The notes under the pieces are model-generated. The model was not told the DNA's origin. It worked only from the letters and a program-made list of their open reading frames with translations, and did not search any database. Positions 16,503-32,661 of a stretch of DNA of 64,000 bases are shown one piece after another. Origin of the DNA: Bradyrhizobium sp. S69 (lineage in GTDB: Bacteria; Pseudomonadota; Alphaproteobacteria; Rhizobiales; Xanthobacteraceae). The stretch is taken from positions 107,542 through 171,541 of the forward strand of contig NZ_LMUK01000006.1 of the NCBI RefSeq assembly GCF_009766005.1, in the 5' to 3' direction. Every line of letters starts with the position of its first letter. The stretch's first letter is position 1. A program made the translations under genes and the position numbers.

Positions 16503-16536
16503 ATATTTGATAATTGTTATCCACTATATCAAATAT
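16503..16536. promoter_or_regulatory. Candidate MarR operator (nested palindromes)
   Basis: ATATTTGATA at 16503-16512 is an exact complement of TATCAAATAT at 16527-16536. Inside are GATAA-TTG-TTATC (16509-16521) and GTTAT-N5-ATATC (16516-16530). It lies in the AT-rich centre of the marR/importer divergent gap and resembles sites before couA and pobA. Confidence 0.6.
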
Positions 16537-16643
16537 CGGCAGGCTTTTTCAACTGCTGTTATCGAAGGCACGTTCGGGCGGCCTCAACGGGCGCGGCCGG
16601 CGGACGTCTTTCGGGGGATCGCCTGTAGGGGGAGCGTCCGGTC

Positions 16644-17684
16644 TTGAACACGACGATCATGCTGTTCCTGGTGCAGGACGGCATTACCAATGGCGCGATC
16701 TACGCGTTGCTCGGCCTGGCGCTGGTGCTGGTGTTCGCGGTCACGCGCGTGATCCTGATTCCGCAGGGCGAATTCGTCACCTATGGCGCGCTGACCTATG
16801 CCTCGCTCTCGGCGGGCCAGTTTCCGGGCACCGCGCGGCTGGCGCTGGCGATGGGGATCGTGGCGTTCGGTTTTGACATTTATGTCGCCCGAAAGTCGCT
16901 GCGCCGGCGTTTGGTCGGCCGCGCCATCATCGTCAATATCGCGCTGCCTGCGATCGTGTTCGCGCTGACCTATGCGCTTGTCGGCCACCCAAGCGGCATC
17001 GCGGTTAACATCGCGCTGTCGCTGGCGATCGTCGCCATGATCGGGCTGTTTCTGTATCGCATCGCGTTTCAGCCGATCGCGCACACCTCGGTGCTGGTGC
17101 TGCTGATCGCCTCGGTCGGCTGCCATCTGGCGATGCAGGGCTTTGGACTGCTGTTCTTCGGCGCCGAAGGCCAGCGCGGCCCTGCGCTGTCGAACGCGGC
17201 CTTCACGCTGGGTCCCCTACGGTTTACCGGCCAGAGCATCGCGGTCTATGTCGTCACCGCAGCCTTCATCGTCGGTCTGTGGCTGTTTTTCGGCTTTACG
17301 CTGACCGGCAAGGCGCTGCGCGCCACCGCGGTCAATCGCCTCGGCGCCCGTCTGGTCGGAATCCGCACCACCTTGGCGGGGCAGCTCGCCTTCCTGATGG
17401 CCGCCTTGATCGGCGCGGTCTCGGGAATCCTGATCGTGCCGATCACCACGCTGTATTACGACACCGGATTCCTGATCGGCCTGAAGGGCTTTGTCGCCGC
17501 GATCATCGGCGGCCTCGTCAGCTATCCCTTGACCGCGGTCGCAGCCCTCGTCGTCGGCATCGTGGAGGCGTTCTCCTCGTTCTACGCCAGCGATTTCAAG
17601 GAGGTCATCGTGTTCACGCTGATCCTTCCGGTGCTGGTGTTGCGGTCGCTGGCACAGCCCGCGGTCGAGGAGGAGAAGGATTGA
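16644..17684 (+). CDS. Branched-chain-type ABC transporter permease (LivH; part of CouSTU-like importer)
   Basis: 346 residues from a TTG start at 16644, preceded by GGGGGAG. The LivH opening QDGITNGAIYALLGLALVLVFAVTRVILIPQGEFV is clear, and the cytoplasmic coupling loop is ALRATAVNRLGARLVGIRTT. It is longer than the LivH at 9393 by an extra hydrophilic/hydrophobic insert near residues 75-130. Its TGA overlaps the ATG of the fused LivM-LivG gene. In R. palustris the CouPSTU ABC system takes up p-coumarate and related phenylpropanoids; assignment here is by synteny. Confidence 0.85.
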   Translation: MNTTIMLFLVQDGITNGAIYALLGLALVLVFAVTRVILIPQGEFVTYGALTYASLSAGQFPGTARLALAMGIVAFGFDIYVARKSLRRRLVGRAIIVNIALPAIVFALTYALVGHPSGIAVNIALSLAIVAMIGLFLYRIAFQPIAHTSVLVLLIASVGCHLAMQGFGLLFFGAEGQRGPALSNAAFTLGPLRFTGQSIAVYVVTAAFIVGLWLFFGFTLTGKALRATAVNRLGARLVGIRTTLAGQLAFLMAALIGAVSGILIVPITTLYYDTGFLIGLKGFVAAIIGGLVSYPLTAVAALVVGIVEAFSSFYASDFKEVIVFTLILPVLVLRSLAQPAVEEEKD

Positions 17685-19459
17685 TGGCGATGCCGCAGCG
17701 GTTGCCGATCCTTCTGTTCGCGCTGGTGATGGCGGCGATTCCGTTCGTCCCCGGCATGCCGCCATTCTGGATCGTGCTGTTGGACAATATCGGCCTGTCG
17801 GCGTTGGTGGCGATGGGCCTCGTGCTCTTGACCGGCGTCGGCGGCCTGACCTCGTTCGGCCAGGCGGCGTTCTGCGGCTTTGGCGCCTACACCACGGCGG
17901 TGCTGACCACGACCTACGGCCTGTCGCCATGGCTGACCTTGCCGCTGTCGCTCTTGGTCAGCGGCATCGCCGCGGTGGTGCTCGGGCTGGTCACGGTGCG
18001 GCTGTCCGGCCATTATCTGCCGCTCGGCACCATCGCCTGGGGCATCGGGCTGTTTTATCTGTTCAGCAAGCTGGAGTTCCTCGGCCGCAATGACGGAATT
18101 TCCGGGATCCCGCCGCTGTCGATCGGCTCCCTCAGGATGATCGATCCCGGAACCATCTACTTCGCGATCTGGATCGCGGTATTGATCGCGGCACTGCTGA
18201 CAATGAACCTGCTGGACTCCCGCACCGGCCGCGCGATCCGCGCGCTGCGCCGCGGCCACATCGCTGCCGAGGCGTTCGGGGTGCACGCGCCGCGCGCCAA
18301 ACTTTTGGTGTTCATCTATGCGGCGGTGCTGGCCGGCCTGTCCGGCTGGCTCTATGCGCATTTCGTCCGCGCCGCCAACCCGACACCGTTCGGCGCGCAG
18401 GCCGGCATCGAATATCTGTTCGTCGCGGTGGTTGGTGGCGCCGGCTATGTCTGGGGCGGCGTGCTGGGTGCGGCCATCGTCGTGATCCTGAAGGAAGTGC
18501 TGCAGAGCTATTTGCCGCTGATCTTCGGCGGCTCCAGCCAGCTCGAGACCATCGTGTTCGGCATCCTGCTGGTGACGCTGTTGCAGCTCGCACCGACCGG
18601 CGTCTGGCCCTGGCTGATGGCACGATTGCCCTTCACGCCGATCCGCAAGCGGCCGGATATGTCGCTGACCTTGCCGCCCAGGTCGCGCGCGACGGCGACG
18701 CCTTCGGTGTTGCTGCAGATCGACCACGCGCGCAAACAATTCGGCGGCGTGATCGCGGTCAACGACGTCTCCTTCGATGTGCAGGCCCGCGAGATCGTCG
18801 CGCTGATCGGGCCCAACGGCGCCGGCAAAAGCACCACCTTCAATCTCATCACCGGCGTGCTGACCGCCTCCAGCGGCAGGATTTCCGTGCTCGGCAAGGC
18901 CATCAACAATGCGCCGCCGCAGGACATCGTCAAACTCGGCATCAGTAGGACTTTCCAGCATGTCAAACTGGTGCCTGACATGACCGTGCTGGAGAACGTC
19001 GCGATCGGCGCGCATCTGCGTGGTCATTGCGGCGCCATCTCCAGTATGTTCCGGCTCGACCGCGCCGACGAAGCGCGATTGCTGGCGGAAGCGGCGCGCC
19101 AGATCGAGCGCGTCGGATTGGGCGAGCAGATCAACCAGCTTGCCGGCAGTCTCTCGCTCGGCCAGCAACGCATCGTCGAGATCGCGCGCGCGCTGTGCGT
19201 CGACCCGATCCTGCTGCTGCTCGATGAGCCCGCCGCGGGGTTGCGGCACATGGAGAAGCAACAGCTCGCGAGCCTGCTGCGCCAGTTGCGCGACGGCGGC
19301 ATGTCGGTGCTGCTGGTCGAGCACGACATGGGATTCGTGATGGATCTGGCCGACCGCATCGTGGTGCTCGACTTCGGCACCAAGATCGCTGAGGGCACGC
19401 CGGGCGCGATCAAGTCCAACCCCGATGTGATCAAGGCCTATCTCGGAGCGGTCGCATGA
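17684..19459 (+). CDS. Fused LivM permease - LivG ATPase (CouSTU-like importer)
   Basis: 591 residues from the ATG at 17684, overlapping the previous stop, with GGAGGAGAAGG ahead. Residues about 1-320 are the LivM permease (LLTGVGGLTSFGQAAFCGFGAYTTAVL and loop IRALRRGHIAAEAFGVHAPRAK). Residues about 340-591 are the LivG ATPase, with Walker A GPNGAGKST, signature LSLGQQRIVEIARAL, Walker B ILLLLDEPAAGL and H-loop VEHDMGFVMDLADR. A hydrophilic linker rich in R/T/S joins them. The fusion fixes one ATPase per permease. The LivF gene overlaps its end by four bases. Confidence 0.9.
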   Translation: MAMPQRLPILLFALVMAAIPFVPGMPPFWIVLLDNIGLSALVAMGLVLLTGVGGLTSFGQAAFCGFGAYTTAVLTTTYGLSPWLTLPLSLLVSGIAAVVLGLVTVRLSGHYLPLGTIAWGIGLFYLFSKLEFLGRNDGISGIPPLSIGSLRMIDPGTIYFAIWIAVLIAALLTMNLLDSRTGRAIRALRRGHIAAEAFGVHAPRAKLLVFIYAAVLAGLSGWLYAHFVRAANPTPFGAQAGIEYLFVAVVGGAGYVWGGVLGAAIVVILKEVLQSYLPLIFGGSSQLETIVFGILLVTLLQLAPTGVWPWLMARLPFTPIRKRPDMSLTLPPRSRATATPSVLLQIDHARKQFGGVIAVNDVSFDVQAREIVALIGPNGAGKSTTFNLITGVLTASSGRISVLGKAINNAPPQDIVKLGISRTFQHVKLVPDMTVLENVAIGAHLRGHCGAISSMFRLDRADEARLLAEAARQIERVGLGEQINQLAGSLSLGQQRIVEIARALCVDPILLLLDEPAAGLRHMEKQQLASLLRQLRDGGMSVLLVEHDMGFVMDLADRIVVLDFGTKIAEGTPGAIKSNPDVIKAYLGAVA

Positions 19460-32467: not shown

Positions 32468-32497
32468 TTTTCAAGACGGGACTTTTCAAGGCGGTCG
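32468..32497. repeat. Two imperfect 15-bp direct repeats (TTTTCAAG)
   Basis: TTTTCAAGACGGGAC is followed directly by TTTTCAAGGCGGTCG. They resemble the 16-bp units at 32603-32650 further downstream in the same gap. Confidence 0.5.
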
Positions 32498-32602
32498 TGT
32501 TGCCGGATGCCTGCCGCTGGACGTCGCTATTCTTGTACCTTGGTCGCATCGCCATCTTGCGGTGCGGCGAGGCGCCGGAAACATTGCGTTGCACCGACCC
32601 GC

Positions 32603-32650
32603 TTTTCCAAGACTGTTATTTTCCAGGACTGTTATTTTCCAAGACTGTTA
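32603..32650 (+). repeat. Three tandem 16-bp repeats upstream of pobA
   Basis: TTTTCCAAGACTGTTA, TTTTCCAGGACTGTTA and TTTTCCAAGACTGTTA follow one another without gaps. The last one runs into the palindrome at 32647. They lie 77-124 bp before the pobA start and may be regulator half-sites or an unstable promoter tract. Confidence 0.75.
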
Positions 32651-32661
32651 TATGATATAAC
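32647..32661. promoter_or_regulatory. Candidate CouR-type operator upstream of pobA
   Basis: GTTATAT-G-ATATAAC is a palindrome with perfect 7-bp arms and the same GTTAT-N5-ATAAC core as the couA site. It lies 66 bp before the pobA start, at the end of the tandem repeats. Confidence 0.6.

Follow-up and report, generated by a model that had tools for sequence, protein, structure and literature searches.

Comparative sequence analysis predicts that pobA, the 4-hydroxybenzoate hydroxylase gene, belongs to the CouR regulon in Bradyrhizobium

The DNA analysed here (the window) is a stretch of 64,000 nucleotides from Bradyrhizobium sp. S69 (contig NZ_LMUK01000006.1, positions 107,542 to 171,541 of the forward strand) and contains a gene cluster for hydroxycinnamate catabolism. 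A palindrome of the form RTTAT-N5-ATAAY recurs in this cluster at the promoters of couA (hydroxycinnamoyl-CoA hydratase/lyase), of couR (MarR-family repressor) and of pobA (4-hydroxybenzoate 3-monooxygenase). Comparison with related genomes makes it very probable that the palindrome is the CouR operator; pobA is predicted to be a member of the CouR regulon, and the ring hydroxylase would then be switched on by p-coumaroyl-CoA. The CouR regulon itself is already known; what is new is the predicted inclusion of pobA.

The exact form of the motif, GTTAT-N5-ATAAC, occurs in the window at 28681–28695 (couA) and 32647–32661 (between tarP and pobA), about 4 kb apart. This bears out an earlier note on this DNA, which had described the motif at the couA and pobA promoters and had proposed a genome-wide search. 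That search, run over the 7,495,077 bases and 62 contigs of the source genome, gives three exact places, two of them in this cluster, against two for the reversed pattern that served as control. The form RTTAT-N5-ATAAY has nine places against six for the control, and three of the nine lie in the cluster, including one at 16500–16514. Matches with up to one mismatch to the exact motif (30 places, control 59) were rejected as evidence. The third exact copy, GTTATGTAACATAAC, is on another contig (L003; G000:C48:34090–34104), in a gap between genes that read, from their translations, as isocitrate lyase and an XRE-type regulator. It is probably another regulator's site and, unlinked to the cluster, was not counted as a regulon member.

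Judged from its sequence, the MarR gene of the window (couR, 15896–16429, minus strand; PF01047 MarR) is an ortholog of Rhodopseudomonas palustris CouR. Its product matches PDB 6c28, a molecule named CouR, over residues 10–177 (phmmer E-value 2.5e-72, 245.5 bits), and in an alignment read by eye the letters of the winged-helix stretch are near-identical. We take 6c28 to be the R. palustris protein; a crystal structure of R. palustris CouR is known and fits this identity (PMC9594313). An R. palustris-type locus (L149) encodes a CouR 100% identical to the 6c28 chain over 168 residues, and as in the window the palindrome stands before couA (GTTATGGTCTATAAC) and between tarP and pobA (GTTATAACCTATAAC). 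In L149, a stretch of 31 bp at the couA site has 32% GC; the R. palustris CouR site described in PMC9594313 has the same length and GC, which is weak support.

At couA, the predicted operator AATAGTTAT-N5-ATAACTATT lies 26 bp before the gene start, where the palindrome forms the centre of a 23-bp dyad whose arms match perfectly (28677–28699). A scan with CouA returned at least 539 relatives, and the best 80 loci, mostly titled Bradyrhizobium and with couA at 86–92% identity, were kept (81 with the window). The exact motif precedes couA in 73 of these 81 loci, with one mismatch in six and two mismatches in two; by RTTAT-N5-ATAAY, 79 of 81 match perfectly and the other two differ at one position. 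In anchored alignments the operator is closely preceded by a conserved TTGACT, consistent with a −35 element that the operator follows. Automatic sigma-70 scans gave no match over the couA or pobA operator.

The gap between couR and the importer gene couS carries a predicted pair of sites. The first half, ATTATATTTGATAAT (16500–16514), fits RTTAT-N5-ATAAY; each of the 42 couR/couS gaps that were assessed contains a perfect match, which in the 17 rows displayed stands at this position. The second, imperfect half, GTTATCCACTATATC (16516–16530), sits within ATATTTGATA...TATCAAATAT. By rarity alone this second match would be meaningless, because one-mismatch matches are not enriched genome-wide; it is accepted as real because it is conserved in couR/couS gaps, where GTTAT-N5-ATAYC recurs 16 bp on from the first half in the 17 displayed rows of the 42, in a separate 14 rows and in L149. 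The GTTAT-N5-ATATC within a larger palindrome that the earlier note had reported here is thus present and conserved, but it is the imperfect member of a pair, the better one being at 16500–16514. Uptake, which the note had placed under the shared motif, would also take in the divergent TarPQM operon, which it had not mentioned and which shares the pobA site. The two units are exactly 16 bp apart, which is also the period of a set of repeats at pobA; this spacing would perhaps allow two CouR dimers to lie side by side. A sigma-70 scan of the couR gap gave one minus-strand match, TTGAAA-18-TATAGT, ending at 16523 within the second half-site.

Between the divergent tarPQM and pobA, a common predicted CouR operator, GTTATATGATATAAC (32647–32661), lies 65 bp upstream of the pobA start and 258 bp upstream of that of tarP. 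Among the 81 loci, 57 have tarP and pobA both found and divergent, and the other 24 were not counted. Of these 57 gaps, 12 carry the exact motif, 31 differ from it at one position and 14 at two; scored against RTTAT-N5-ATAAY, 45 match fully and the remaining 12 deviate at a single position. At 338 bp, the gap of the window exceeds those of the 56 relatives measured, none of which is longer than 284 bp. It also holds three 16-bp direct repeats, TTTTCCARGACTGTTA (32603–32650, plus strand), each with a GTTAT half-site; they are in step with the operator and the third runs into it. No comparable repeats were seen in the 120-bp stretches displayed for other gaps. A 35-bp outer dyad around the pobA site (TGCCA...TGGCA), noticed by eye, is not claimed, as complementarity there is only 0.36–0.70.

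A site shared by two divergent units might serve tarPQM alone, leaving pobA as a bystander under some other regulator, for example the LysR protein encoded nearby (lysR, 34590–35483, convergent with pobA and 0.7 kb downstream). tarPQM is reported to be under CouR control in R. palustris (PMC3610893), the site also stands at tarP in genus g36, where pobA does not adjoin it (L157, L158), and the LysR gene is kept near pobA in 52 of the 53 loci with enough flank. However, pobA retains its site where tarP was not found in the fetched stretch, in six loci of genus g23 (L161, L162, L230, L231, L233, L237) and in L283 of genus g38. The distance from the operator is also steady to pobA (57–95 bp, standard deviation (sd) 7) and variable to tarP (39–258 bp, sd 50) over the 57 gaps, and no LysR relative occurs in the fetched stretches of the genus g26 loci L146–L152, the R. 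palustris type among them. We therefore regard control of tarPQM alone as unlikely, and favour a CouR operator that acts on both units.

Twenty further 20-kb stretches from eight other genera bring the set to 100 loci and 1,795,583 bases. In the additional stretches, couA is preceded by a perfect site in all 18 loci where the gene occurs, tarP and/or pobA have one in 16 of 19 loci, and couR in 12 of 20; in the remaining eight (seven g26 loci, including the R. palustris type, and L165) CTTAT replaces RTTAT at the couR place. Over all 100 loci RTTAT-N5-ATAAY has 210 matches, and every one lies within 300 bp of the start of couA, couR, couS, tarP or pobA, with starts extrapolated from tblastn. 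The nearest start is that of couA for 96 matches, couR for 51, pobA for 39, tarP for 22 and couS for two, with none elsewhere. Since the loci were chosen for couA or couR, this exclusivity means an absence of other sites near the cluster and is not a genome-wide statement. An extended half-dyad, RTTAT-N5-ATAACNATT, searched for across whole genomes of the genus, is present in 60 of the 61, whereas the control pattern gave a total of four matches. A chance origin of the motif was rejected on the rarity of its exact form, its exclusivity in the 100 loci and its presence across the genus.

The promoters of pobA differ between genomes according to the presence of CouR. pobA was found at threshold in at least 140 of 198 genomes, and 80 pobA places were fetched as a chosen, non-random sample: second, unlinked copies from genomes that have CouR, linked copies, and copies from genomes that lack it. 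A copy was called linked within 25 kb of couR on the contig, an operator was at most one mismatch within 200 bp upstream, and the CouR threshold was 200 bits. By these definitions, the operator precedes 23 of the 25 linked copies, 6 of the 25 without such linkage on the contig (each of the six adjoins tarP) and 2 of the 30 in genomes without a CouR match above 200 bits; the background from first-order Markov resampling is 90 in 8000. One of the two linked misses (G150) has a perfect site about 230 bp upstream of pobA. The other (G125) has an in-frame stop in couR, a degenerate tarP/pobA site, and no tarQ or tarM found, so that its locus (L275; G125:C9) presents a natural decay series. In genus g23, all eight genomes with CouR have a perfect operator upstream of pobA (one at about 230 bp), and tarP is in the fetched stretch only in G190; of the four genomes without CouR none has a perfect operator and two have one mismatch. 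The operator degrades or vanishes where couR is lost.

Elsewhere pobA is accompanied by an AraC-type regulator. By operator and by AraC-type relative in the fetched stretch, the 80 copies divide into 31 with the operator only, 23 with the relative only, 26 with neither and none with both. The AraC queries were the regulators beside two unlinked pobA copies; the family was checked by HMM (hidden Markov model) for two of the regulators and by tblastn for the rest. Beside the window pobA, the two queries gave no match in 28001–38000, and one of them lacks a full-length ortholog in the source genome, where its best match (66 bits) covers residues 208–309 only. Nor is there an IclR gene of the PcaR/PcaU/PobR family beside pobA; the nearest lies about 25 kb away, at 6958–7701 (105.7 bits) or, in a longer frame, 6880–7701 (105.9 bits), in either case below the cut-off of 284.75. 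The earlier note had remarked that no PobR-type regulator lies next to pobA, which is correct for AraC- and IclR-type genes adjoining it and incomplete as to the conserved LysR gene downstream. Upstream of the unlinked second pobA copies of Bradyrhizobium at L202–L208, which have AraC-type genes nearby, a TTCGAAT-N-GTACAAGACAA-like stretch recurs and is a candidate PobR site.

The same 80 promoters bear on the idea that two divergent, AT-rich −10 boxes make up the palindrome, kept for promoter function with no repressor bound. TATAAT-like hexamers do occur on both strands within RTTATATNATATAAY, and the TTGACT upstream of the couA site would suit such a role. However, the motif is missing within 200 bp in 49 of the 80, including all 23 with an AraC-type relative nearby; it decays or disappears where couR is missing, and its conservation covers both arms, beyond the hexamers. 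This makes a pure promoter element very improbable. Slighter still is the chance that the motif is real and read by a regulator other than CouR: the gap of couR's own promoter matches perfectly in every one of the 42 cases, the pobA site tracks the presence of CouR, and couR is the only close copy of its kind in the source genome, the next best having 25% identity.

Several observations weigh against pobA being a straightforward member of the CouR regulon. The 26 pobA copies with neither operator nor AraC-type relative mean that other wirings exist. In most Bradyrhizobium-type loci the pobA site departs from the exact motif (12 of 57 are exact), and three of the 19 additional loci that have tarP and/or pobA lack a perfect site there (L150, where it is GTTGTAACCGATAAC with one mismatch, L163 and L164). 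No clear −10 and −35 elements were recognized at pobA in anchored alignments or sigma-70 scans. The conserved LysR gene could also act on pobA, as could an IclR regulator of the PcaR/PcaU/PobR family that scores above cut-off on another contig; these regulators may leave room for a second input.

The window resembles the R. palustris CouR regulon (couAB, couPSTU and tarPQM, with p-coumaroyl-CoA as inducer) in its orthologous CouR and in its gene set, with couAB and the TarPQM and CouPSTU importers all in a single cluster. It differs in the extra half-site repeats at pobA and in the conserved LysR neighbour. In R. palustris, p-coumarate raises expression of the TRAP and ABC genes, which CouR controls (PMC3610893). 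In the sources available, control by CouR is reported for side-chain and transport genes, to which pobA is here added as a predicted member. RPA1782 is TarP (PMC3610893) and rpa1781 is a homolog of p-hydroxybenzoate hydroxylase (PMC12366328); the position of pobA beside tarP in L149 is in line with this adjacent numbering. None of PMC3610893, PMC4943940 and PMC12366328 uses the word pobA in its main text, and a literature search, whose reach did not extend to the original CouR studies and their RNA-seq, gave no paper among those listed that places pobA under CouR.

The CouR of Rhodococcus jostii RHA1 is likewise of the MarR family, responds to p-coumaroyl-CoA and recognizes an inverted repeat with a 5-bp spacer, although the arms of its box, cATTGA-N5-TCAATg, differ from those of the window palindrome (PMC4737184). 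ATTGA-N5-TCAAT has no exact occurrence in the window and two with one mismatch, as expected by chance and none in the cou region; a box of the R. jostii type was accordingly rejected for the cou promoters. Where pobA is controlled by the AraC-type PobR, as for atu4545/atu4544 of Agrobacterium, in which PobR induces pobA (PMC12285266), the enzyme and its reaction are the same as in the window. In contrast to the Agrobacterium gene, the window pobA has no AraC-type neighbour and has a predicted CouR operator in its place.

The comparative evidence favours the earlier note's proposal that a single MarR-type repressor governs shortening of the side chain, uptake and the ring hydroxylation, on the grounds of the orthology of CouR, the placement of all 210 matches, the absence of the motif from the 23 AraC-type pobA copies and its decay without CouR. 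In the proposed mechanism, a CouR dimer would occupy RTTAT-N5-ATAAY at the couA, couR/couSTU and tarPQM/pobA promoters and block RNA polymerase. CouB would make p-coumaroyl-CoA, and by analogy the thioester would release CouR, upon which both importers, CouAB and PobA would rise together, so that PobA would already be there by the time 4-hydroxybenzoate is formed. The reaction of CouA leads to hydroxybenzaldehyde and then to 4-hydroxybenzoate. Both the ligand and its release of CouR are carried over from R. palustris (PMC3610893, PMC5487221). Because the motif stands at side-chain, importer, repressor and pobA genes in many relatives, one p-coumaroyl-CoA sensor likely induces the hydroxylase before its substrate appears, and inclusion of pobA in the regulon would thus mean induction of PobA by p-coumaroyl-CoA and not by 4-hydroxybenzoate. 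We give about even chances to a stronger proposition: that in this lineage the only 4-hydroxybenzoate hydroxylase no longer answers its own substrate and that a CoA thioester made several steps upstream induces it in advance, that 4-hydroxybenzoate alone would not induce it, and that the AraC/PobR and CouR wirings never coincide at one promoter.

If this is correct, a catabolic step has changed its regulator, from a substrate-sensing activator to a repressor sensing an upstream CoA thioester, and the genomes with two pobA copies under two wirings, the tarP-free clusters and the couR losses are natural intermediates for comparison. Such strains would grow on p-coumarate, yet induce pobA poorly on 4-hydroxybenzoate alone. 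As a precise predicted operator, RTTAT-N5-ATAAY could serve to locate hydroxycinnamate regulons in the Bradyrhizobium/Rhodopseudomonas family and to tune p-coumaroyl-CoA biosensors.

The remaining genes of the cluster were assigned as follows. The coumarate ABC importer genes (16644–20211, plus strand), whose order is kept in related loci, encode CouSTU-like permeases and ATPases with LivH-, LivG- and LivF-like matches in the frames 16644–17684, 17279–19459 (LivG-like domain at the end) and 19456–20211. The coumarate-binding protein of this importer is encoded by couP (23371–24606, minus strand; 690.8 bits to 3tx6/4f8j/4fb4, presumably R. palustris CouP). The p-coumarate-CoA ligase gene couB (25951–27852, minus strand) matches the acyl-CoA synthetase model PRK12582 with 745.1 bits, slightly below the cut-off of 777, and adjoins couA (27854–28654, minus strand; crotonase family PRK08150, 427.6 bits). 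The TRAP importer for hydroxycinnamates, tarPQM (29342–32388, minus strand), comprises tarP (31366–32388; 641.6 bits to 7nqg), tarQ (30653–31219) and tarM (29342–30646), with DctP, DctQ and DctM Pfam matches. pobA (32727–33896, plus strand) scores 689.8 bits against TIGR02360 (cut-off 538.7) and is the sole copy above this cut-off in the source genome; its start was set at TTG 32727, since the match to the family model starts only at residue 21 of the longer frame and AAAGGAAA precedes the TTG. Further genes of the cluster encode a thioesterase, a short-chain dehydrogenase and a DUF3237 protein, and another thioesterase gene follows pobA. Inverted-repeat sequences, which we take to be of a kind scattered through Bradyrhizobium genomes, lie at 28726–28850, just upstream of the couA operator, and at 33925–34045, after pobA.

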